Below, piece by piece: positions 3,510 through 23,265 of a stretch of DNA of 64,000 nt (position 1 is its first letter; every line of letters starts with the position of its first letter). The notes beneath the pieces are model-generated. The model was not told where the DNA came from. It saw only the letters and a list, made by a program, of their open reading frames with translations, and did no database searches. Source of the DNA: Nitrosovibrio sp. Nv17 (GTDB lineage: Bacteria > Pseudomonadota > Gammaproteobacteria > Burkholderiales > Nitrosomonadaceae); the NCBI RefSeq assembly GCF_900119085.1, contig NZ_FPIQ01000001.1, positions 1 through 64,000 on the forward strand, read 5' to 3'. The position numbers were made by a program, and so were the translations under genes.

Positions 3510-4766
3510 ATGAAAAAGAAGCTGATTGCACTGGCTGCCGCCGGAGCACTCGCAGTCCCGGTGGCCGCATCCGCTCAGGGAACGAATGTCACGATATTCG
3601 GCCGGGTGCAGGCGGAATACAGCCTGGTTGACTTTGCCGGCACGCCCAGCCAGGGGTCACTGCAGGACAATTCCCGTTCGTCGCGCTGGGGTCTGCATGT
3701 CACCGAAGATCTCGGGAACGGGCTCAGGGCCAATGCCCGCCTGGAATTCGGCCTGAACACCGGTTCCGGTTCGGCGACGACGCCGCGCGAGCAGTGGGTG
3801 GGTCTCTCCAGCAACGAATGGGGTGAAATCCGGTTCGGTCGCCTCCAGTCTCCGTTCAAGGACTTCGCCGGTGGCCAGACGATCGATCCGTTCGCCTACA
3901 CCACCCTCCAGGCGGCCGGTTCCGGCGGCACCATGACCGCCAGCGCCAATGGCCTGGGCGCGGGTGCGAACACCTTCCTCAACAGCGCGATCCGCTACGA
4001 TTCGGCCAACATCGAAGGCTTCTCCTTCTCGGGCGTGCTGCTGCCGGGTGACTCCAATTCGCTCGATCCCCTCCAGAACGGCAGCATCTTCTCGGGCCTG
4101 TATCCCGGCGGTCTGGGCAGCAACGGCAATACCGGCGGCAGGAACGGCGAATTCGACGGCCAGGCCGCTGCCAAGTACCACGTGGATGTCGACGGCTTCG
4201 GCGGCTTCGATATCTTCGGTGGCTACTCCCGCGACAACGTCAACGAGACGCAGAAGAATCTCGTGGGTTTGAGAAAGGCCGAAGAAGTATGGCGTGTGGG
4301 CGCTTCCTGGGCGATCGAGAACTTCAAGCTCAGCGGCCAGTATGAGGACATCAACAACGCCATCGGCGCGGCAACGTGTAGCACCGCTGCGGCCCTGGTG
4401 TCGAACCCTGCAGATATCGGCACTTCCGGCCAGTGCAATTCCGCCATGAACGTGGGCGGCGATGGCCATACCTGGTTTGCCAGCGCGCAGTACCGGTGGG
4501 GCAACACCACGCTGGTGGCCCAAGGCGGCATGACCCGTGCGGATGCCGGCGGCATTTATAATTCCGCCCGTCGCAAGGCCGACAGCTTCACGGTCGGTGC
4601 CATCCACAACCTGAGCAAGCGCACTAGCCTGTTCGGCGGCTACCAGCACGTGTACGTGACCAATGCCAACGGCGCCGCGGCGAACGACATCGGTGGCGCG
4701 ATCGCTCCCGTGTACGCAACCGGCAATCGTGCGACCTACACGATCGGCGTGCGCCACAACTTCTGA
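3510..4766 (+). CDS. Gram-negative general porin, outer-membrane beta-barrel
   Basis: Forms diffusion channels for small solutes in the outer membrane. The 418-residue precursor opens with a typical signal peptide ending ASA before QGTNVTIFGRVQAEY. That is the hallmark first strand of betaproteobacterial trimeric porins (Porin_4/OmpC-like). It ends in the barrel-closing motif IGVRHNF with the C-terminal Phe recognised by the BAM complex. Many alternating hydrophobic strands lie between, fitting a 16-stranded barrel. ATG 3510 follows AAAGGAG at 3494-3500. It is monocistronic, with its own promoter and a strong terminator. Substrate preference cannot be read from sequence. Confidence 0.93.
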   Translation: MKKKLIALAAAGALAVPVAASAQGTNVTIFGRVQAEYSLVDFAGTPSQGSLQDNSRSSRWGLHVTEDLGNGLRANARLEFGLNTGSGSATTPREQWVGLSSNEWGEIRFGRLQSPFKDFAGGQTIDPFAYTTLQAAGSGGTMTASANGLGAGANTFLNSAIRYDSANIEGFSFSGVLLPGDSNSLDPLQNGSIFSGLYPGGLGSNGNTGGRNGEFDGQAAAKYHVDVDGFGGFDIFGGYSRDNVNETQKNLVGLRKAEEVWRVGASWAIENFKLSGQYEDINNAIGAATCSTAAALVSNPADIGTSGQCNSAMNVGGDGHTWFASAQYRWGNTTLVAQGGMTRADAGGIYNSARRKADSFTVGAIHNLSKRTSLFGGYQHVYVTNANGAAANDIGGAIAPVYATGNRATYTIGVRHNF

Positions 4767-4786
4767 TCGAATCGGATCGGATCGGA

Positions 4787-4814
4787 ATAGGGCGCTTCGG
4801 CGCCCTATTTTTTT
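4787..4814 (+). terminator. Rho-independent terminator of the porin gene
   Basis: A perfect 9-base-pair stem, ATAGGGCGC (4787-4795) and GCGCCCTAT (4800-4808), closes a TTCG tetraloop and is followed by a run of T. It lies 20 bases after the porin stop. Confidence 0.93.
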
Positions 4815-11858: not shown

Positions 11859-12562
11859 CGGGCGTGGGCATCGTGACCGCGATGCGAATGGAAGCACGGT
11901 GCGTCACTTCGCGGCGCCTGCCCTTCAACAGCCGGGTCAGCCTGGGACCCGGCGCGGCGATATGGCTTTGCGGAATCGGCGCGGAGGCGGCGCGTGAGGC
12001 GGCAGAGGGACTGCACGCCGGAGGCGCCTCCGCCCTGGTGAGCTTCGGGTTTGCCGGAGCGCTGGATTCCAGCTTGCGACCGGGGGACCTGATGTTGCCG
12101 GATTCGGTTTCCGCCGATCGCTTGCTCCCGATCGATACCGAGTGGCGCAGCCGGGTGCGGGAACTGCTTTCGGCGCGCGTGCGGATAGCGGGCGGGATAC
12201 TGGCGGCAAGTCCGCACATGCTGGCTTCGGCTGCGGCCAAGCGTGAACTGGCGCAGTCCGCAGGGGCACGTGCGGTGGACATGGAGAGCGGCGCCGTGGC
12301 GGAAGTCGCCTTCCGCACCGGAACGGCGTTCCTGGCGGTGCGCGCGATATCGGATCCGGTGGAGTGCTCGCCTCCCGCGGCGCTGCTCGGAGCGCTGCGC
12401 CGCGACGGCAGCCCCGATCCGGTGCGCCTGGCGATGCTGCTGCTGCGGGGTCGTGTGGCAATCGGCACGCTGCTGCGCCTGGGGGCGGATTCCCGCGCCG
12501 CATGCGCCACGCTGGCGGCGGTGTCGCGCCATGCCGGCAGGGAATTGGGGTTCGCCGGGTAG
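11855..12562 (+). CDS. hpnG: HpnG, hopanoid-associated nucleoside phosphorylase
   Basis: Member of the purine/uridine phosphorylase superfamily that removes adenine from adenosylhopane to give ribosylhopane, the step after HpnH. The 235-residue protein contains the nucleoside-binding signature VSFGFAGALD and the late motif VDMESGAVAEVA with the catalytic-region Met-Glu. This is the usual arrangement in MTA/SAH-nucleosidase-like folds. GTG 11855 overlaps the cyclase stop. The frame is open further upstream inside the cyclase gene, but that part is not phosphorylase-like. Confidence 0.87.
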   Translation: MTGVGIVTAMRMEARCVTSRRLPFNSRVSLGPGAAIWLCGIGAEAAREAAEGLHAGGASALVSFGFAGALDSSLRPGDLMLPDSVSADRLLPIDTEWRSRVRELLSARVRIAGGILAASPHMLASAAAKRELAQSAGARAVDMESGAVAEVAFRTGTAFLAVRAISDPVECSPPAALLGALRRDGSPDPVRLAMLLLRGRVAIGTLLRLGADSRAACATLAAVSRHAGRELGFAG

Positions 12563-12624
12563 TGCCGGATGAACGTTTCCCGGCCACCGGATCGGCCGCG
12601 GATAAAATAAAATTTTCGCGTTAC

Positions 12625-12654
12625 TTGAGAATTCGCGTCGTTAAAGAGTAAAAT
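12625..12654 (+). promoter_or_regulatory. Sigma-70 promoter of rpsO
   Basis: TTGAGA (12625-12630) and TAAAAT (12649-12654) with an 18-base spacer lie in an AT-rich stretch 38 bases before the rpsO start. They match consensus well. Confidence 0.65.
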
Positions 12655-12691
12655 ACCGGCCTTTCGTATCAGGCATTTAATGGAGACGCAC

Positions 12692-12961
12692 ATGCCAATC
12701 ACAACCGATCGGAAAGCACAGGTCGTGCGCGACTACCAGCGCGCGGCTGGCGATACCGGTTCCCCCGAGGTACAGGTGGCGTTGCTGACCACCCGTATCA
12801 ATGATCTGGCGACCCATTTCAAGGCGCACGTCAAGGATCATCATTCCCGCCGGGGCCTGTTGCGGATGGTCAGCCGTCGTCGCAAGCTGCTCGACTACCT
12901 CAAGCGTAACAGCATGGACAGCTATCGGGTACTGATCGAGCGCCTCGGTCTGCGCAAGTGA
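12692..12961 (+). CDS. rpsO: 30S ribosomal protein S15
   Basis: Binds the central domain of 16S rRNA and nucleates platform assembly. The 89-residue length from ATG 12692 equals that of Escherichia coli S15. Typical segments are [36 protein letters not shown] and [17 protein letters not shown] at 12682-12686 gives the proper spacing for this ATG, so the in-frame ATG at 12680 is rejected. The rpsO-pnp order is conserved in proteobacteria. Confidence 0.97.
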
Positions 12962-13099
12962 CCGCCCGATTCCGTCCAGGGATGGCTCGGCGCAGCATGT
13001 AAGAGAAGAGCGCAAGGCGGTTCTTTCCGGCGTGCCGATGCGGTTCCCGATGATGGGCACGGACAACGCAATCTTTGTATAAATAAAGGGCAGTCAATT

Positions 13100-15220
13100 T
13101 TGAAACCAATCAAGAAGAGCATTTCCTACGGGCGCCATCGACTGACCCTGGAGACAGGCGAAATCGCAAGGCAGGCGCATGGTGCAGTCATGGTTTCCCT
13201 GGAAGATACCGTGGTGCTCGTTACCGTGGTGGGTGCGAGGAATGCCAAGCAAGGCCAGGATTTTTTCCCACTGACGGTGGACTACCAGGAGCGGAGCTAT
13301 GCCGCCGGCAGGATTCCCGGAAGTTTCTTCAAGCGCGAGGGACGCCCTTCCGAGAAGGAGATTCTGACTTCCCGTCTGATCGATCGGCCCATACGGCCGC
13401 TGTTTCCGGAGCGCTTCTACAATGAGGTGCAGATCGTTGCCACCGTCCTGTCCTCCGACAGCGAGATCGACGCGGATATTCCCGCCATGATAGGCGCTTC
13501 GGCCGCGCTGGCGCTTTCGGGCATTCCCTTCGACGGTCCCATCGGCGCTGCGCGGGTCGGTTATCTGAACGGCGAGTATGTGCTCAATCCGACCACGACC
13601 GAATTGAAGCAGACCGAATTGAATCTCGTGGTCGCGGGTACGCAGCAGGCCGTGCTGATGGTGGAATCCGAGGCCCTGGAATTATCCGAGGAGGTCATGC
13701 TGGGTGCGGTCATGCATGGCCACCAGCAGATGCAGACCGTGATCGACGCCATCAATGAACTTGCCGATGAAGCGGGGGCCGCTGCGTGGGACTGGGCACC
13801 CGCGGAAACGGACGGTGCGCTCGCCGAGAGAATTGCCGGCCTGGCCGAGGCCGATCTGCGTCATGCGTTCCAGTTGAAGCAGAAACAGGCGCGATCCGAG
13901 GCGATAGATGATGTCTGGAAGAAGGTTTTTGCCGAAGTCGGGGTCGATACCGAAGGCGGGCCGGACGGTCAGCGCGTCAAGGAGATCTGCTTCGCCCTCG
14001 AATCGAGGATCGTGCGCTCCCAGATTCTCGATGGCGAGCCGCGCATAGATGGTCGCAACACGCGCACCGTCCGTCCCATCACGATCCGCAGCGGGCTGCT
14101 GCCGCGCACGCATGGTTCCGCACTGTTCACTCGCGGGGAAACCCAGGCGCTGGTGATCGCGACGCTGGGAACGGGGCGCGACGAGCAGAAGATCGATGCG
14201 CTCCAGGGGGACTACTCCGAGCGTTTCATGCTCCACTACAACATGCCCCCCTACGCCACCGGGGAGACCGGTCGCGTGGGCACCCCCAAGCGCCGCGAGA
14301 TCGGGCATGGCCGCCTGGCCAAGAGGGCCCTGGTGGCGGTGCTGCCTTCTGCCGAGGAATTTGGCTATTCGTTGCGGGTCGTGTCGGAAATCACCGAATC
14401 GAACGGTTCGAGTTCCATGGCCTCGGTATGCGGCGGCTGTCTGGCCCTGATGGACGCCGGTGTGCCCCTGAAGGCGCATGTGGCGGGGATCGCCATGGGG
14501 CTCATCAAGGAGGGGAATCGGTTCGCGGTGCTGACGGACATACTCGGGGACGAGGACCACCTGGGCGATATGGATTTCAAGGTGGCGGGCACCGAAAAGG
14601 GCATCACCGCGTTGCAGATGGATATCAAGATACAGGGCATCACCCGCGATATCCTGCACGCCGCCCTGGTGCAGGCGCGAGAAGGCCGCATGCACATCCT
14701 GGAGATCATGAAACAGGCGCTTCCTGCCACGCGCGAGGACATCTCAGAACATGCCCCGCGCATCATCAAGATAAAGATCAATCCGGAAAAGATACGCGAC
14801 GTGATTGGCAAGGGGGGGGCGGTCATCCGTGCGCTGACCGAGGAAACCGGCACCACCATCGACATCACCGACGACGGCACGGTGATGATCGCCTGTATCA
14901 ATGCCGAGGGCGGCGAGCTGGCGAGAAAGCGCATCGAGGACATCACCGCCGAGGTGGAGGTGGGGCGGATCTACGACGGTACCGTCCTGAAGCTGCTGGA
15001 TTTCGGTGCGATCGTGAGCGTTCTCCCGGGCAAGGATGGCCTGCTTCACATTTCCCAGATCGCCAACGAGCGTGTCAACAGCGTTGCCGATTACCTCAAG
15101 GAAGGTCAGGCAGTGCGCGTCAAGGTATTGGAGGCCGACGACAAGGGGCGGCTGCGGCTCAGCATGAAGGCGGTCACCGTGGTGGAGATCGTCGACAGCA
15201 CCGACAGCACGATTTCCTGA
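13100..15220 (+). CDS. pnp: Polynucleotide phosphorylase
   Basis: Phosphorolytic 3'-to-5' exoribonuclease of the RNA degradosome. The 706-residue protein has two RNase PH cores; the second carries [12 protein letters not shown] and the metal-site segment [22 protein letters not shown] domain ([17 protein letters not shown]) and a C-terminal S1 domain ([19 protein letters not shown]) follow. The start appears to be TTG at 13100, preceded by AAGGG at 13086-13090; no ATG or GTG fits the family N-terminus. PNPase is usually autoregulated through its leader, and the 138-base rpsO-pnp gap could hold such a structure, though I did not identify one. Confidence 0.96.
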
Positions 15221-15277
15221 TACCGGAACGCATGTCGCCGCTCTCCTGCGCCTGGCAGGGCGCGGGCCTCAGAAAAC

Positions 15278-15300
15278 GGGGGAGAATCCATTCTCCCTTG
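15278..15300 (+). terminator. Weak hairpin terminator after pnp
   Basis: A 7-base-pair stem, GGGAGAA (15280-15286) and TTCTCCC (15291-15297), has a TCCA loop and is followed by only TTG. It lies 60 bases after the pnp stop. The short T run makes termination efficiency doubtful. Confidence 0.45.
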
Positions 15301-15366
15301 TGACCGGGAGAGCCGCTGCGGTCGGGAAACGTGCCGATGCGCCAGCGATGGCCAAGACATCCTCTT

Positions 15367-15789
15367 CTACTTGGCGACCTGTCTTTCCCTGATTTCGTCC
15401 AGCGTCTTGCAATCTATGCAGAGTGTGGCGGTGGGGCGGGCCTCCAGGCGTTTGAGGCCGATTTCGATGCCGCAGCTTTCGCAGTAGCCATAATCTCCGG
15501 TATCTATCTTGGCGATGGTTTCCTCGATCTTCTTGATCAATTTGCGTTCGCGATCGCGATTGCGCAACTCCAATGCCATGTCCGACTCCTGGCTGGCACG
15601 GTCGTTGGGATCGGCAAAAATGGTGGCCTCGTCCTGCATCGTATGAACCGTGCGCTCGATGTCCTGGCCCAATTCGGTCTTGATTCCCTCCAATATGCTA
15701 CGAAAATGCATGAGCTGTCTGGAACTCATGTAGCTTTCCCCCTTTTTCGGCTTGTAGGGGGCCGCTGGTTTACGCAATTCTTGCGGCAT
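15367..15789 (-). CDS. dksA: RNA polymerase-binding transcription factor DksA
   Basis: Binds the secondary channel of RNA polymerase and, with ppGpp, adjusts rRNA and amino-acid promoters. The 140-residue protein has the long coiled-coil region carrying [11 protein letters not shown], whose Asp residues form the acidic coiled-coil tip, and the four-cysteine zinc site CESC...CIDC near the C-terminus. Its length is close to the enterobacterial protein, and it starts at ATG 15789 after AGGGACC. It is monocistronic and convergent with pnp. Confidence 0.96.
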
Positions 15790-16292
15790 GTGAGGTCCCT
15801 TTTATATTCGGTGACGTATCAAGGTTGTGGATGGTGCAGAAAAAGATCATATCCTAAATCGGAGGGGTTGGGCGCAACGGAATCGTTTCTGCCGGAGTGT
15901 GGCCGGGATGCACGACTGAAGCAGCGTGTGCGGACGCCGCGATTCGGCGTCCGGCCGTAGCCTCGCGCTCACCGCGCCAGCGCACCTTCGGGTGCAGGCA
16001 GGCGCCGGCTTGGAATTTTACTGGAATGCCCGCAGGTTTGCAGCAATGAGCCGGGAATCCGCCTCGCCTTCCGGCCGGACTGCCGGGAGCCTGCAGAGGG
16101 GAATGGCAGCCTGTCGCACCTCGCCGGAAACTGTGCTATGTTACCGGCAGGCCATCGCTGGCTTCGACAAGAATGGTCTCGGTGGCTATATGCATGTTCG
16201 CGTGTCGAGTCGTCCCGGAAGGAATAAGGGGGAGATTCCGGCTGGCTTGGGCACCTACACTCATCGGAATTACCCATACAGGAGAAAACGTC
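15790..16292. other. 503-base intergenic region between dksA and the RiPP operon
   Basis: No gene is supported here. On the minus strand TATGAT at 15846-15851 may be the dksA -10 element. Two strong hairpins are visible: CGGACGCCG (15931-15939) with CGGCGTCCG (15945-15953), and GCACC-TTCG-GGTGC (15982-15995). On the plus strand TGCTATGTT (16134-16142) reads as an extended -10 that could drive the RiPP operon with a leader of about 145 bases. AGGAGA at 16280-16285 is the ribosome-binding site of the precursor gene. No clear ECF-sigma promoter was found. Confidence 0.5.
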
Positions 16293-16709
16293 ATGTCCAG
16301 AAAAAAATCCATCCTTTCCGTCGCTGTCGGATCTGCCTTCGTCCTCGGTTTCGGTAACGTGGCCACGGTTTCCGCGGCCGACAACCCTTTTTCGGTGCAG
16401 CCTCTAGAAAAGGGCTACATGGTGGTCGATGCCCATCAATACGGGGAAAAGACCAGCGGGGAAGGCAAGTGTGGCGAGGGGAAATGCGGGGAAGGCAAGT
16501 GTGGCGGCAAGAGCCAGAATGCGTGCGGCGAAGGAAAATGCGGCGCAGCCATGGCGGACGCGAACAATGACGGCAGAATCACCCGAGAGGAGTGGGCTGC
16601 GCATCACGACGCCATGTTCAAGCGCATGGATGCCAACCAGGACGGCTACATCACCAAGGAGGAAGCGAAGAGCAAGGCCAAAGAAGGCAAGTGTGGCGGT
16701 GCCAAGTAG
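16293..16709 (+). CDS. Bufferin/oxazolin-type RiPP precursor with two EF-hand loops
   Basis: A 138-residue secreted peptide precursor. Residues 1-29 form a signal peptide (AFVLGFGNVATVSAA). Six cysteines follow at 60, 65, 70, 78, 83 and 134; five sit in EGKCG motifs (57-61, 62-66, 67-71, 80-84, 131-135) and one in NACGE. EGKCG repeats characterise HvfA/BufA precursors whose cysteines are converted to thiazole- or oxazolone-type copper ligands by a DUF692 enzyme. Two canonical 12-residue EF-hand loops, DANNDGRITREE (89-100) and DANQDGYITKEE (113-124), lie between the main repeat block and the last motif. ATG 16293 follows AGGAGA. The family role is copper binding or buffering in the periplasm; the EF-hand role is unknown. 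Confidence 0.85.
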   Translation: MSRKKSILSVAVGSAFVLGFGNVATVSAADNPFSVQPLEKGYMVVDAHQYGEKTSGEGKCGEGKCGEGKCGGKSQNACGEGKCGAAMADANNDGRITREEWAAHHDAMFKRMDANQDGYITKEEAKSKAKEGKCGGAK

Positions 16710-16855
16710 GCGGCGATAGAGATACCGGCCGTTCGTTCGGCCAGGGGCCGGGGGATGCTGCGTGCATGTGAGCGAACCCGGCTTCTTCCATCGGTTTTCG
16801 GGTTGAGTCCGCATCCTTGCGTCGATGACCCTCGTTCCCCTGCCGTCTCGTCATC

Positions 16856-17719
16856 GTGAAGACCATGATGAAATCCTTGCAGCGTATCAGCGCAGGCCTC
16901 GGTTTCCGGCGTGAGCTGATTGCCGAGTTGAAGGTGCGCGTTCCCGCCGCCATCGACTTCTTCGAAATCGCGCCCGAGAACTGGATCGACCTGGGGGGCG
17001 CGGCAGGAAGGGATCTGCGCAGCTTCACGGAGCGCTATCCTTTCGTCTGCCACGGCCTGTCGCTCTCCATCGGCGGCCCTGCTCCCCTGGATGAGGAATT
17101 GCTGCGCGGGATACGACGGTTTCTGGACTGCCATCGGATCGACCTGTATACGGAGCATCTCTCGTACTGCTCCGACGACGGCCATCTCTACGACCTGCTG
17201 CCCATCCCATTCACGGAAAAGGCGGTGGGCTATGTGGCCGGGCGTATACGCCGCGCCCAGGACATCCTGGGGCGCCGCATCGCGCTGGAGAACGCTTCGT
17301 TCTACGTGAAGGCCCCGATCGCGGACATGAGCGAGGCGGAATTCATCCTTGCCATCCTGCAGGAAGCGGACTGCGATCTGCATCTCGATGTCAACAACGT
17401 CTATGTCAACAGCGTGAATCATGGCTATGATCCTGTCGAATTCATCCGCTCGATGCCGGGCGAGCGCATCGCCTATATGCACGTCGCTGGCCATTACCGG
17501 GAAAGTGAACGCCTGATCATCGATACGCACGGCGCGGATGTCATCGATGCAGTGTGGTCGCTGCTGGATCAGACCTATCGCATCCATGGCGTGGCACCCA
17601 CACTGTTGGAACGCGATTTCAATATTCCGCCGCTGCATGAACTGGTGCAGGAGGTCGAGCGTATCGGCCTCATCCAGTCGCGGCATGCGAGAGTGGGCCA
17701 TGCCTGCACCACTGCCTGA
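16856..17719 (+). CDS. DUF692 multinuclear iron enzyme (HvfB/BufB/MbnB family)
   Basis: TIM-barrel protein of about 287 residues of the DUF692 family, related to MbnB and TglH, which use a multinuclear iron centre and oxygen to oxidise peptide cysteines. Family motifs include [15 protein letters not shown], the metal-ligand His in [10 protein letters not shown], the YTEHLSYC segment, [30 protein letters not shown] and LLERDFNIP. The likely substrate is the adjacent EGKCG precursor. GTG 16856 is the longest start; ATG 16865 or 16868 are equally plausible because no good ribosome-binding site is seen. It overlaps the next gene by 20 bases. Confidence 0.9.
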
Positions 17720-18464
17720 ATTCCAGCGCTATCAATATGCCTTCGCCGCCCATCTCCGCGACCCGCGGAACAATGCCCGGCCCCAGGGGACCGACGCGGC
17801 GCGCATGCGGGTGTACCGGAGGCTGGTCTACGGCAACATCGACGGCTTCCTGCTGACCTGTTTTCCCGTGCTGAGGAAAGTGCTGGGCGCGCGCCGCTGG
17901 GAGCGGCTGGTGCGCGCGTTTGTGGCCGTGCATCGCAGCCGATCGCCTTATTTCCGGGACATCCCGAATGAATTCGTGGGGTTTCTTCAGGACGAATGGG
18001 TGCCGCTGCCCGACTATCCCGAGTTCATGCTGGAACTGGCGCACTACGAATGGGTGGAGTTGGCGCTCGCCACGTCGATGGGAGTGCTGGACTGGGAGCG
18101 GATCGACGTGGACGGGGACCTGCTGGCCCGGCGTCCTGTGGCCGCACCGGCGCTGGCCAACCTGTGCTACCGCTGGCCCGTGCATCGCATCCGGCCAAGG
18201 ACCCGCGTCACGCCGGGGGAGACCCGGCTGCTGGTATTCCGCGATGCCGGAGAGCGCATCCGCTTCATCGAGATCAATGCATTCACCGCGCGTCTGATGA
18301 GTCTGCTGGAGAGGGAGGAGCATACCGGTCGCGAGGCGCTCGCGATCATAGCAGCGGAGAGCCGCCACCCCGTTCCCGACGCCGTGATCCAGGGGGGGGC
18401 CGCAGCCATGCAGGACCTGCGATCGCGCGGAGCGTTGCTGGGAGTCCTGCGCGAGGGTCGCTGA
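17700..18464 (+). CDS. DUF2063 RiPP partner protein (HvfC/BufC family)
   Basis: A 254-residue protein. The N-terminal DUF2063 domain has the typical [15 protein letters not shown] opening, [25 protein letters not shown] and [19 protein letters not shown]. In related systems this partner binds the precursor and forms a complex with the DUF692 enzyme, needed for cysteine modification; the automatic name putative DNA-binding domain is misleading. The C-terminal part probably resembles the recognition domain of MbnC-like proteins. ATG 17700 lies inside the end of the enzyme gene, so the two are translationally coupled. No DoxX-type membrane protein (HvfD/BufD) follows; the next gene is hslU on the other strand. 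Confidence 0.88.
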
Positions 18465-18479
18465 CGAACCCCTTGCGAC

Positions 18480-19811
18480 TCAGAGGACGTAGCGGGCCAG
18501 ATCCTCGCTTTGCGACAGGCCGCCGAGACGCACGTCGACGTAGGTGGCATCGATGGTGATGGCATCACCACTGTGCTTTTCGGCATCGAAGGACACATCC
18601 TCCAGAAGCTTTTCCATGACGGTGTGAAGCCGTCTTGCACCGATGTTCTCGGTTTTCTCGTTGACCGTATAGGCGATCTCCGCCAGTCGCTTGACCGCCT
18701 CGGGCGTGAACTCCAGCGTGATGTTCTCCGTTTTCAGCAACGCCTCGTACTGGCGCACCAGGCAGGCGTCGGTATTGGTGAGTATCTGCACGAAATCATG
18801 GGCGGTCAGGCTGCCCAATTCCACGCGGATGGGGAAACGGCCCTGCAGCTCGGGGATCAGATCGGAAGGCTTGGAGAGATGGAAGGCACCACTGGCGATG
18901 AACAGGATGTGATCCGTCCTGATCATGCCGTACTTGGTTGAAACGGTTGTGCCTTCCACCAGCGGCAACAGGTCCCGTTGCACACCCTGTCGCGAGACGT
19001 CCGCACCGGAGGTTTCGGAGCGGCTCGTGATCTTGTCGATTTCATCCAGGAAGACGATGCCGTTCTGTTCCACGTTCCGTACCGACTGCACCTTGAGCTC
19101 CTCATCATTGACCAGCTTGGAGGCCTCCTCGTCGATGATGAGCTTCATCGCTTCGCGAATCTTCAGCCTGCGGGTCTTTTTTCTTTCCCCGCCCAAATTC
19201 TGGAACATGCCCTGAATCTGCGTGGTGAGTTCTTCCATTCCAGGGGGTGCAAAGATCTCCATGTGAGCATGCGCCCCCGCCACCTCGATCTCGATCTCCT
19301 TGTCGTCGAGCTCGCCCTCGCGCAATTTTTTTCGAAATTTCTGCCGCGCCGTACCCTCGTTCTCTACCGTTTCGGATTGCGGTATCAGTTCTCGTGCGGG
19401 AGGCAGCAGTACGTCGAGGATACGCTCCTCGGCATGATCTTCCGCGCGCGCCCTCACCTTCTGCGTCTCCTTCTCGCGCGCCTGCTTGATGGCGGACTCC
19501 ACCAGGTCGCGGACGATGGAATCCACGTCACGCCCCACGTAGCCCACCTCCGTAAATTTGGTTGCTTCCACCTTGATGAAGGGCGCATCCGCAAGTTTAG
19601 CGAGCCGGCGGGCGATCTCCGTCTTTCCGACACCTGTCGGGCCGATCATCAGGATGTTCTTCGGCGTGATCTCCTGCCGCAGGGGTTCCTGCACCTGTTG
19701 CCTGCGCCAGCGATTGCGGAGGGCGATGGCAACCGAGCGCTTGGCGGCATCCTGTCCGATGATGTGCTTGTCCAGTTCCTGGACGATTTCCTGCGGGGTC
19801 AGTTGCGACAT
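18480..19811 (-). CDS. hslU: ATP-dependent protease ATPase subunit HslU
   Basis: AAA+ unfoldase that feeds proteins into the HslV peptidase (ClpYQ). The 443-residue length is normal. The N-terminus [24 protein letters not shown], the Walker A motif GPTGVGKTE, the Walker B region VFLDEIDKI and sensor-type segments near the C-terminus are present. The C-terminal tail SEDLARYVL is the docking peptide that enters HslV. It lies 130 bases downstream of hslV and converges with the RiPP operon. Confidence 0.97.
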
Positions 19812-19941
19812 GATTTCAAGGGCGTCGGTGGCAAGGCGGGGGTACGAGGAAAAAAGGGAATACCCGAGGTCCGACAGGGTATCTGGCTGGTTGAGGGTGG
19901 ACCCTCAGTCATGGCGGACGGAAGGATTCTGCATGCAGCAA

Positions 19942-20478
19942 TCACCCCAGGGTTTCGATCACATGATTCTGATTGGTATAGATGCACAGGTCGCCGGCAA
20001 TGGTCAAGGATTTCCTGACGATCTCCAATGGGGGCAGATCGGTGTTTTCGAGCAGCGCCCGCGCTGCCGAGTGTGCATACGAACCGCCGCTGCCAATGGC
20101 GGCGAGTCCCAACTCGGGCTCGATGACGTCGCCGGAACCCGTGATGATGAGGGTGCTCTCATGGTCCGCCACCACCAGCATGGCCTCCAGGCGGCGCAGA
20201 ATGCGATCGGTGCGCCAATCCTTGGCCAGTTCCACTGCCGAACGCATGAGATGTCCCTGATGCTTTTCCAGCTTGCCCTCGAAGCGTTCGAACAGGGTGA
20301 AGGCATCCGCGGTACCGCCTGCAAAACCGGCCAGTATCCTTCCATGGTAGAGTCGGCGTACCTTGCGGGCACTGGCCTTGGCCACGATGGCACCCAGCGT
20401 GACCTGCCCGTCGCCGCCAAGCGCCACCTGGGCGCCGCGCCGCGCAGAGAGTATGGTGGTGCCGCGAAAGTCTGCCAC
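19942..20478 (-). CDS. hslV: ATP-dependent protease subunit HslV
   Basis: Threonine peptidase of the HslUV protease. After a short propeptide (MADFRG) the chain exposes Thr of TTILSARRG as the nucleophile, and GGDGQVTLG follows as in other HslV proteins. From GTG 20478 the protein has 178 residues, close to the usual 176. The frame is open further upstream to a longer start, but those residues do not match the family, so GTG is preferred. No heat-shock promoter was clearly visible. Confidence 0.95.
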
Positions 20479-20505
20479 GTCCCGGAATGAAAAAGGAAAG
20501 CGTCG

Positions 20506-20511
20506 ATTATA
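20506..20511 (-). promoter_or_regulatory. Putative -10 element of hslV
   Basis: Perfect TATAAT on the minus strand, 28 bases upstream of the hslV GTG. The -35 region (GAGTGC at 17-base spacing) is poor. A sigma-32 type CCCCAT box occurs further upstream near 20675-20680, but without a convincing CTTGAA partner. Confidence 0.4.
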
Positions 20512-20721
20512 CTCAAATCGGGCGAGAGGCACTCGTTATCGGCGTATTTTCGATGGCGGTCGCCGGATCGTCCCGGTGGCCCTGTCCGCATCGAGGTCAG
20601 GGCCGGCGTCGGCCGCATGCACGGTTCAGGCTTCCGGCACCCGGATCATCCACACCCTTGATGCCGATTCGATAAATGGGGTCGAGGTGACATGAACCGC
20701 TCCGGGTTCCGGGGACACTCC

Positions 20722-21690
20722 TTACCTTTCATCTTTCGGGGAGTCCCCGTCGGGCGCATGGTCGGTCATGCCTGCGCGGGACTTTTTAGCCCGCGGATGC
20801 GCGACGTCGTACACCTTGGCAAGGTGCTGGAAATCGAGGTGCGTGTAGACCTGGGTGGTGCTGATGCTGGCATGCCCCAGCATTTCCTGTACCGCGCGCA
20901 GGTCGCCGCTGGACTGCAGCACGTGGGATGCGAACGAGTGTCGCAGCACGTGGGGGTGGATGCCGGAGTCGATACCCTGCCGGACGGCCTGGCTCTTCAG
21001 TCGCTGGGCGATGGACCGCGAACTGATGTCGTTTCCGTGCCGGGACAGGAACAGGGCGGTGGCGCCGGGCCGGGCCAGCGTCTCCCGCAGTGCCAGCCAG
21101 GCATGCAGGGCGCGTCTTGCCGCCGCGCCCACTGGTACGATCCGGGTCTTGCCGCCCTTGCCGGCGACACGCACCGTTTCGTCGTACAGATCCAGATCCT
21201 GCGATCGCAGGTTGGTGAGTTCCGCCAGCCTGAGCCCCGAGGAGTAACATAGCTCGAACATGGCCTTGTCCCGCATCGCCATCGGATCGCCGCCGGGGTT
21301 GAAGTCCAGCAGTCTCGCAGCCTCGTCGGGAGTCAGGGTACGCGGCAGGGGGCGGGGAGACCGGGGCGCGCGCACGCCTGCGCACGGGTTGCTGGTGTAG
21401 CCGTGGTTGCGCATCAGGTAGCGATAGAATCCTCTCCATGCCGACAGCATTCTGGCGAGACTTTTTCCCGAGAATCCCTTGCCATGGCGCTGCGCCACGA
21501 AGCGGCGAATATCATATACCCGCAACTGGTCGAGCGGCGTTTCCCCTGCCGAATAGAGCAGCACCGAGATGTCGCGCGAATAGTTCCCGCAGGTATGCGT
21601 CGACAAGCGGCGCTCATTGGCAAGATGGGACACATAACTCGCGGCAAGCATGGATCCCGTGTCATTGCGCGCGCTGACGGTGCTAGTCAC
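20722..21690 (-). CDS. xerC: Tyrosine recombinase XerC
   Basis: Site-specific recombinase that resolves chromosome dimers at dif together with XerD. The 322-residue protein has an N-terminal SAM-like core-binding domain and a C-terminal catalytic domain. Visible catalytic residues are Arg in GLRLAELTNL, Lys in GKGGKTR, His-x-x-Arg in HVLRHSFASH, His in LGHAS and the nucleophile Tyr in TQVYTHLD. The GTG start overlaps the DUF484 stop as GTGA. dapF-DUF484-xerC is a conserved proteobacterial order. Confidence 0.95.
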   Translation of the reverse strand: MTSTVSARNDTGSMLAASYVSHLANERRLSTHTCGNYSRDISVLLYSAGETPLDQLRVYDIRRFVAQRHGKGFSGKSLARMLSAWRGFYRYLMRNHGYTSNPCAGVRAPRSPRPLPRTLTPDEAARLLDFNPGGDPMAMRDKAMFELCYSSGLRLAELTNLRSQDLDLYDETVRVAGKGGKTRIVPVGAAARRALHAWLALRETLARPGATALFLSRHGNDISSRSIAQRLKSQAVRQGIDSGIHPHVLRHSFASHVLQSSGDLRAVQEMLGHASISTTQVYTHLDFQHLAKVYDVAHPRAKKSRAGMTDHAPDGDSPKDER

Positions 21691-22382
21691 GCCTCGGTGC
21701 CTCCATTGCCCGTGGATGGCCGATATCGCACCGATGCGGCGCTTACGAGTTCACCGAGCCGCGTCAGATAAAGGGTGCCCATTTCCGGGTAGAAGCGCTG
21801 CGGATCCTCGCTTCCCAGTACCAGCAGGCCAAAGGTGCGCTGCCTCCGCAAAGGGATCGTCGCGAAGGAACGCAGGTGGCCCGCGCCTGTTCCGAACCAG
21901 TTCCTGATTTCGTCCGGCACGTGGTGGCCGCAACGGGGCTGCAGCAGGTCTTCCGCCAGGGTGCGGGCACTCGGGCTCACGGGCGCCAGTTCGGGAGGTG
22001 CCGGATCGGCGACGATGTCCCACAGGCGCAACGTCACGTGGGGAATCAGAAATTCTCCGCGCAGGTGGGAATCCAGCCGTTGCAGAAGATCGCCCAGGCA
22101 GGTGCAGCCGAGCAGCATGATTGCAAGGCGATGCAGTTTCTGGCCCAGGGTATCGTTTTCTTCCCCGAATCTGATCAGTTCAGCCAGCCTGTCCTGCAGG
22201 ATATGGTTCTTGTCCCGGAGTACTGCTACCTGCCGCTCGCTGATGGGGATGGTCCTGCCGTCGTGCCGGCATGGAATCCGTATCTCTGCCAGGATGCCGG
22301 CGTGTTCGTCGAAGAATTGCGGGTGTTCCTGCAGATAGCGAACGACCTCTTCCGGATCGAGCTTCACCCCTTTTGTCTCCAT
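21687..22382 (-). CDS. DUF484 family protein
   Basis: A 231-residue protein with a GAF-like fold whose precise function is unknown. The N-terminus matches the DUF484 pattern (DPEEVVRYLQEHPQFFDEHAGILAEIRIPCRHDGRTIPISERQVAVLRDKN), with a short coiled coil after it and a C-terminal FGLLVLGSEDPQRFYPEMGTLYL segment typical of the family. I used ATG 22382; an in-frame TTG at 22403 is possible. It is coupled to xerC, suggesting a role linked to chromosome segregation or envelope growth, but that is only context. Confidence 0.88.
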   Translation of the reverse strand: METKGVKLDPEEVVRYLQEHPQFFDEHAGILAEIRIPCRHDGRTIPISERQVAVLRDKNHILQDRLAELIRFGEENDTLGQKLHRLAIMLLGCTCLGDLLQRLDSHLRGEFLIPHVTLRLWDIVADPAPPELAPVSPSARTLAEDLLQPRCGHHVPDEIRNWFGTGAGHLRSFATIPLRRQRTFGLLVLGSEDPQRFYPEMGTLYLTRLGELVSAASVRYRPSTGNGGTEA

Positions 22383-22422
22383 CTCCCGGTCGTCATGCCG
22401 CAAGGAGCAGCCGGAATGTCCT

Positions 22423-23265
22423 TCATGAAGCGTTCGCCAGGTCGATTTCGCCGTCGAACACGAAAGTGGCGGGCCCCGTCATCCATACTGGCCGATTTTC
22501 TCCCTCCCAGCATATAGCCAGACTGCCCACGCGAAAGCGGACTTCGACCTCGGAAGCGAGCAGGCCCCGCCGGATGCCGGCCACCACTGCAGCGCAGGCG
22601 CCCGTACCGCACGCCAGCGTCTCGCCCGTGCCGCGTTCGTACACCCGCAGCCTGATGTGTCCTCGATCCAGCACCTGTGCGTATCCGACATTGACGCGGC
22701 GAGGGAAGCGAGGATGGCCTTCGATCAGCGCACCCTCGGTTTGCACCGGCGCCCGATCGACGTCATCCACCCACCGCACCGCGTGAGGATTGCCCATGGA
22801 AACGGCGCTGATTTCCACGCATTTCCCATCGAGCTCGAGCGGATAGACCGGCGCGTATCCATCCGCGATGAAGGGAATGGCATCCGGTTCGAATCGCGGT
22901 ACGCCCATGTCGACGGCGACGTTGCCATTTGGTTCGAGCCGCAGCGTGATCAGGCCGCCGCGGGTTTCCACACGGATTTCATCCTTGTTCGTCAACCCGC
23001 GATCATGAACGTATCGCACGAAGCAGCGCGCGCCGTTTCCACACTGCTCCACCTCGTTTCCATCGGCGTTGAAGATCCGGTAGCGGAAATCGGCGTCATC
23101 CGTGGCAGGAGACTCTATAAGCAGGATCTGGTCGCAACCGACGCCGAAGTGGCGATCGGTCAGGTGTCGCCGCTGTGCCGGATCGAGGTGAATGGACTGG
23201 CGGATGCCGTCAATGACGACAAAATCATTGCCCAGCCCATGCATCTTGGTGAATCTGAGCTTCAT
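22423..23265 (-). CDS. dapF: Diaminopimelate epimerase
   Basis: Interconverts LL- and meso-diaminopimelate for lysine and peptidoglycan synthesis. The 280-residue protein has the two-fold DapF domain and both catalytic cysteines: Cys75 in [10 protein letters not shown] and Cys219 in [10 protein letters not shown]. It starts [19 protein letters not shown] at ATG 23265; the longer open frame upstream is not family-like. It heads the dapF-DUF484-xerC unit, with a 40-base gap to the next gene. Confidence 0.96.

Follow-up and report, generated by a model that had tools for sequence, protein, structure and literature searches.

The operon at positions 16,293 to 18,464 of the window (the whole 64,000-nt stretch of Nitrosovibrio sp. 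Nv17 DNA analysed here) probably makes a secreted, modified copper-binding peptide that is joined to a small calcium-binding module. On the sequence side, this reading draws on gene content, motif conservation, the coupling of the cysteine motif to the MNIO enzyme, and the independence and constraint of the EF hands. The operon adds an ammonia-oxidiser case to the published class of EGKCG/EF chimaeras, and new here are a one-cysteine EF-hand form lying before the MNIO gene, the finding that the two modules are separable, and a sister genus from which enzyme and cysteine were lost together.

The HvfABC operon and its EF-hand precursor

Translation of the open reading frames and family profiles define three genes in the same direction, encoding a precursor, an HvfB-family MNIO and an HvfC partner. 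They and the parts of the precursor are as follows.

16293..16709, + strand: precursor, HvfA-like EGKCG peptide with an EF-hand pair, 138 aa (translation, Pfam, NCBIfam; signal peptide by eye)
Residues about 1-28, + strand: signal peptide (by eye)
Residues 31-44, + strand: NPFSVQPLEKGYMV block of the precursor (translation)
16377..16544, + strand: N-terminal part of the mature peptide (residues 29-84) with four of the five EGKCG motifs (Cys 60, 65, 70, 83) and Cys 78 in NACG (translation)
16557..16592, + strand: EF-hand loop 1, DANNDGRITREE, residues 89-100 (Pfam, alignment)
16629..16664, + strand: EF-hand loop 2, DANQDGYITKEE, residues 113-124 (Pfam, alignment)
16683..16697, + strand: fifth EGKCG (131-135), C-terminal to the EF pair (translation)
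16856..17719, + strand: MNIO enzyme (PF05114; NCBIfam HvfB family MNIO-type RiPP peptide maturase) (Pfam, NCBIfam)
17703..18464, + strand: HvfC family RiPP maturation protein (DUF2063 and NGO1945_C) (Pfam, NCBIfam)

The MNIO gene lies about 147 nt downstream of the precursor gene, has a GTG start whose exact position is uncertain, and is overlapped by the HvfC gene over 17 nt. By reading, the operon lies between pnp and dksA at one end and hslU at the other, and it contains no doxX gene. No RNA family was found at gathering scores in 12000-23000, nor any sigma-70-like site before the operon, both sites found in 15700-18600 falling inside the MNIO gene.

The preliminary description had named a secreted EGKCG-repeat precursor, a DUF692 iron enzyme and a DUF2063 partner, and this gene content was confirmed, as each of the three passes family cut-offs in Pfam and NCBIfam. 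The MNIO scores 346 bits against PF05114 and 428 bits against the NCBIfam HvfB family model NF003818 (cut-off 360), which makes it an HvfB-class MNIO, and its best solved relative is 3bww. The third protein scores 266 bits against NF050145 (cut-off 142) and 93.6 bits against DUF2063 (cut-off 27.2), as a DUF2063/RRE partner (HvfC, PME1) does, and has a solved relative in 3dee. The same description had equated the arrangement with both HvfABC and BufABC; the first name stands, on the cut-offs just given, but the second does not, and the operon matches HvfABC of the EGKCG type. A Bufferin-1 (BufA1) assignment was rejected, as the MNIO stays under the BufB cut-off (261 of 310 bits) and the precursor has no DUF2282 among its Pfam matches to E 0.1. 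A genome-wide search found this to be the single MNIO of the source genome, in which pieces of ammonia monooxygenase, a copper enzyme, are present at two contig ends.

The precursor carries EGKCG at residues 57, 62, 67, 80 and 131 and cysteines at 60, 65, 70, 78, 83 and 134. It exceeds the cut-off of the HvfA-family model KCGExKCG_twice (NF050137; 26.6 bits, cut-off 19.5), while it scores 19.3 of the 95 bits required by the full-length HvfA equivalog NF050188. Pfam EF-hand_5 (PF13202) finds two stretches in it (46.8 bits, cut-off 25.9), and translation bears out the position given earlier for the loops, between the main cysteine block and the last EGKCG. They had also been called two perfect 12-residue loops; length and the canonical Asp/Asn/Asp/Glu ligands hold for both, but perfection does not extend to loop 2, which lacks the hydrophobic residue that the PROSITE EF-hand pattern has after position 12. 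The loops are separated by 12 residues, and Cys83 is placed six residues ahead of Asp89 of loop 1. We dismissed a chance origin of the loops as unlikely because, when the mature part was shuffled 20,000 times, 0.165% of the shuffles had one EF loop or more and none had two; two EGKCG motifs did not appear either.

An AlphaFold2 model built with 23 sequences is weak overall (mean pLDDT 61, pTM 0.37). Most of the EF part reaches a pLDDT of 82-85, mature residues 17-52 stay below 50, and the N-terminal part of the mature peptide is predicted to be mostly unstructured. One 15-residue helix connects both EF loops in this model. Foldseek returned 27 matches to E 10, mostly EF-hand proteins, all with E above 0.5 and none at 0.001 or better, and the best VIA-align Z was 4.8, to an EF-hand pollen allergen.

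Secreted EF loops about 12 residues apart, as in the window precursor, are also known from lanmodulin (spacing of ~12 residues) and other bacterial EF-hand proteins. Together with a weak match to the NCBIfam LanM model and a lanmodulin structure, 6mi5, among the best PDB sequence matches (E 7e-06), this spacing could suggest lanthanides rather than Ca2+ as the metal of the EF pair, a reading that we nevertheless regard as highly improbable. The LanM match reaches 24.6 bits against a cut-off of 135 and is exceeded by that to an EF-bearing transaldolase model (26.6 bits); on this equivalog score lanmodulin identity was rejected. Moreover, the precursor loops lack the proline at position 2 that is typical of lanmodulin loops, and lanmodulin is not known to have EGKCG or an MNIO.

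Precursor forms and the coupling of the cysteine motif to the MNIO

All 23 genomes of the genus that were covered (window genome included) possess an MNIO, and in all 23 an EF-hand precursor is located at most 900 nt upstream of it. The 22 relatives fall into three layouts. In seven, a multi-motif EF precursor stands first and a one-motif EF precursor second; in three, the first place is taken by a 74-aa precursor with EGKCG only, again ahead of the one-motif form; and in 12 the one-motif form is the sole precursor seen there. The window locus has the multi-motif form only. In all 22 relatives the one-motif form has exactly one cysteine after residue 28, which sits in EGxCG ahead of EF loop 1; the two such proteins scanned against NCBIfam (L088 and L090) matched no RiPP model.

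The one-motif forms differ in this respect from the fontiphorin system, in which, according to the available part of PMC13097082, a single-repeat FonA peptide remained unmodified in vitro and a two-repeat one was modified; for a two-repeat peptide the paper gives a mass loss of 8 Da. Accordingly, the one-cysteine relatives may be poor substrates, yet a one-cysteine precursor adjoins the MNIO in 22/22 genus relatives. If such one-site substrates are modified, the two-repeat requirement of FonBC in vitro would not be general. It is conceivable, if on balance doubtful, that the MNIOs of the genus make a minimal metalloprotein, in which just one modified cysteine sits at the opening of an EF pair that binds Ca2+. 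Such a product would be a folded periplasmic sensor or chaperone for two metals rather than a chelator with many sites, and multi-EGKCG chimaeras like that of the window would be an expanded buffering version of it.

A box resembling TGTGACATAATATTT, similar to an extended -10 element, occurs shortly 5' of the start codon in 7/7 one-motif genes inspected (L037, L039, L040, L047, L052, L053 and L054), and none was seen before the window precursor. Another EF protein of the source genome, unlinked to the operon (L002:1486-1941), combines a single EGRCG with a long tail whose last residues are NLQHMKPMGE; the one MNIO of that genome may modify it in trans. Tails like this one are also found at L059-L061, L063 and L064, with no MNIO in the retrieved stretch. 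A second, partial MNIO match is present in the genome G014 (C10).

A contig search with the window precursor alone gave no confirmed relative. An alignment-profile scan of named genomes, from which the best 80 of 151 loci were kept, identified relatives in Nitrosospira, Nitrosovibrio, Nitrosomonas, Thiogranum, Lysobacter, Pseudoxanthomonas, Tahibacter and Pseudomonas. A search for co-occurrence of EGKCG repeats, EF loops and a neighbouring DUF692 gene had been proposed at the outset, and it gave an association: among these best 80 loci, which are non-independent and have flanks of up to 4 kb, an MNIO is in the locus in 17 of the 23 that combine a pair of EF loops with an EGxCG-type motif, and in none of the 57 EF-hand loci without the cysteine motif. 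The hybrid had at first been considered unusual, a judgement not borne out here; relatives occur in eight genera, and it is an already known kind because PMC12452194, in the part available, describes the class.

Genome-wide searches covered five of the six cysteine-motif loci without an MNIO (all except L080) and found one elsewhere in the genome for L083, L086, L087 and L091, and none in the genome of L100, a Bacteroidales contig. L100 itself (3863-4807) encodes a 314-aa protein in which four EF loops, recognised by pattern, are interleaved with EGKCG blocks. By reading, Cys-Gly motifs lie on both sides of the EF pair in 9/9 Lysobacter-Tahibacter-Pseudomonas loci (L093-L098, L101, L107 and L108). 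EGKCG-only precursors adjoining MNIOs are common.

Loss of enzyme and cysteine in a sister genus, and the history of the fusion

No MNIO was found in 28 of the 125 genomes of the family, and a search of these 28, together with two MNIO-bearing genomes of the sister genus g4, matched a precursor relative in 23 of the 30. Within g4 the EF protein is present in seven of eight genomes (G025, G028, G031, G034, G040, G043 and G046; not G037), and its nearest relative is the one-motif form found in the genus of the window, the precursors of g2 being more distant. The gene is directly followed by nrdA (named by reading) in 6/7 cases, with no MNIO or full HvfC between them; in the seventh, G040, the contig stops some 570 nt past the EF gene and no MNIO starts before its end. 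Two scraps of HvfC remain at one g4 locus (L089 and L195 being one and the same). The order precursor-MNIO-HvfC-nrdA is seen in two g2 genomes, at L069 (same contig as L082) and L071, and no nrdA was found within the retrieved sequence of the g2-like loci L066 and L081. Because g2 has precursors of the multi-motif kind, what g2 and g4 have in common is the downstream flank only.

Tyrosine replaces the cysteine in all seven g4 proteins, EGxCG having become GGGYG, GGKYG or EDKYG. Both EF loops are still recognisable in all seven, with Gly6 of loop 1 gone in five, and Pfam found one EF stretch in L199, the sole g4 protein scanned. The dN/dS of the EF part is 0.10-0.12 in four of the six cysteine-less pairs, those for which it was computable; the EF part is thus under purifying selection after loss of the cysteine. 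The loss in g4 probably represents one or two events, not seven. Because g4 has lost both the cysteine and the enzymes and its EF part is still constrained, the cysteine motif tracks the MNIO, and the EF pair is maintained for itself. Two counter-cases are draft genomes in which no MNIO was found, G063 with an EF protein retaining EGKCG and G517 (80% complete) with a PCG motif.

By reading, G028 and G037 have an MNIO in a different cluster (L222 and L223), with DoxX-like, sigma-factor-like and further genes, and the precursor of the G028 cluster is DUF2282 by Pfam. In G063, where the MNIO is undetected, a Cys-rich protein is encoded beside the stand-alone one-cysteine EF protein (L224:5293-5604). 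Its likeness by eye to a copper storage protein was not upheld, as it has no Pfam match and no other genome matched among 225 loci.

To examine conservation we aligned 23 Nitrosomonadaceae proteins, all with EF loops, selected by hand from 52 precursor-like proteins. Invariant in these 23 are G13, P32, E80, C83, G84, D89, D93, E100, H104, F109, D113, D117, G118 and E124, conservation in this alignment being biased upward because resemblance to the window protein was how its members had been picked up. The invariance of E80, C83, G84 and H104, even where the other EGKCG motifs are gone, could point to a composite sensor, in which modified Cys83 at the start of the entering helix of EF loop 1, His104 and the Ca2+ loops would form a Ca2+-gated Cu(I) site coupling both metals. 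Cys83 is the first residue of a short helix before loop 1 in the structure model (residues 55-60, mature numbering), and the companion histidine is also gone in 6/7 cysteine-less g4 proteins. However, the model is of low confidence, and once other families are taken in, as in a wider set, H104 varies and C83 falls just short of invariance. The remaining g4 protein, L195, retains the histidine without the cysteine, and KHH is kept in the EF-only Nitrosomonas proteins L099 and L102, which have no EGxCG; strict co-loss of cysteine and histidine was therefore dropped. The common EGKCG-only precursors beside MNIOs likewise speak against such a sensor, and we consider it quite unlikely.

The history of the fusion was followed on an MNIO tree with 61 members. 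An EF precursor adjoins 42 of them and an EF-less precursor 17, and for two no precursor was seen. The EF-bearing rows form four groups, Nitrosomonadaceae (28), Lysobacter-Tahibacter-Pseudomonas (10) and two unnamed families (2 each). The EF label requires five changes on the tree (four without both 'none' rows), of which at least three changes are forced by starred branches; bootstraps are unsettled, many forks are open, EF rows are oversampled, and gains are indistinguishable from losses. The EF fusion has thus changed several times on the MNIO tree. The two modules appear separable because EGKCG-only and EF precursors stand in tandem in 3/22 relatives and EF-only relatives outlast the enzymes, and this suggests that the EGKCG and EF halves are separate parts that were shuffled and lost independently in evolution.

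The repeated changes of the EF label, the absence of the cysteine motif from 57 of the best 80 of 151 EF-hand loci and the missing Gly6 in five g4 proteins would also agree with secreted EF-hand proteins having recurrently captured EGKCG repeats, the EF pair being a mere carrier or spacer without a role in Ca2+ binding. The ligand positions, invariant in the 23 aligned proteins, and the low dN/dS of the four pairs after cysteine loss argue against such a passive relic, which seems rather unlikely to us.

Proposed function and relation to published systems

Instead, we lean towards an oxazolin/captophorin-type Cu(I)-binding RiPP to which an EF module folded by Ca2+ adds a second, separable function, and hold this to be fairly probable. 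Weighing against it are the motif-bearing EF proteins of G063, G517 and L100, in whose genomes no MNIO was found, the few events behind the g4 loss, the closeness of the g4 proteins to the one-motif form, the missing Gly6 in loop 1 of five of them, the variation of the EF-proximal cysteine and of H104 outside the family, the unmodified one-repeat FonA peptide and the weak structure model. HvfB and HvfC would convert the EGKCG cysteines in the cytoplasm, by homology to 5-thiooxazole rings, and Sec would carry the modified precursor out. The EF pair may be poorly folded at cytosolic Ca2+, which would keep the substrate flexible for the enzyme and for Sec. In the periplasm the modified cysteines would bind surplus Cu(I), and Ca2+ would fold the EF pair, which would then serve as a small anchor or as a unit for dimerisation next to the final modified cysteine of the N-terminal part. 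Dimerisation by the EF pair is a guess, and copper could possibly be coupled to a second metal.

With the oxazolin HvfABC and fontiphorin FonABC systems (captophorins; PMC13097082) the window operon shares EGKCG repeats, an HvfB-type MNIO and a DUF2063/RRE partner. According to the available part of that paper, the MNIO-PME1 cases characterised so far install 5-thiooxazole, to which the modification of EGKCG is assigned, and the products generally bind Cu; none of the terms EF-hand, EF hand and calcium occurs in its main text.

The closest published counterpart, as far as the available part of PMC12452194 goes, is its MNIO-associated Buf_EGKCG/EF-hand_5 chimaera, an EGKCG domain with two EF-hand_5 units, and the window precursor belongs here, with two EF-hand_5 units, EGKCG and an adjoining MNIO. 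The EF hands are described there as fused at the C-terminus of the EGKCG domain, whereas the window precursor and all nine Lysobacter-Tahibacter-Pseudomonas relatives have Cys-Gly motifs on both sides of the EF pair. The same part of the paper describes tandem precursor genes (Buf1/Buf2), mentions stand-alone precursors, and reports secreted MNIO-adjacent peptides with 1 to 18 cysteines, so that single-cysteine ones are in print in general form. It contains no one-motif and no Cys-lost EF form, and 0 occurrences of Nitroso- organisms or ammonia. Within the open-licence PMC literature it was the only paper found to join MNIO, EF-hand and RiPP, and nothing was found there on DUF692 or the EF hand in Nitrosospira, on EF-hand and copper in Nitrosomonas, or on bufferin in Nitrosomonas.

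As to why MNIO peptides carry EF hands, the authors of PMC12452194, in the part available, offer a suggestion only, namely Ca2+ homeostasis or signalling besides copper. The relatives described here provide a ready test set for this question, with one-cysteine substrates adjoining EF loop 1, an EF-less tandem partner, and EF proteins without cysteine and enzyme.

A precursor-type N-terminal signal and leader region was also observed at L207-L209, L216, L219 and L220, ahead of a domain that by eye looks helical and Spy/CpxP-like. Because these six proteins share the signal and leader region, they suggest that the leader block of the precursor has been reused in Spy/CpxP-like proteins.
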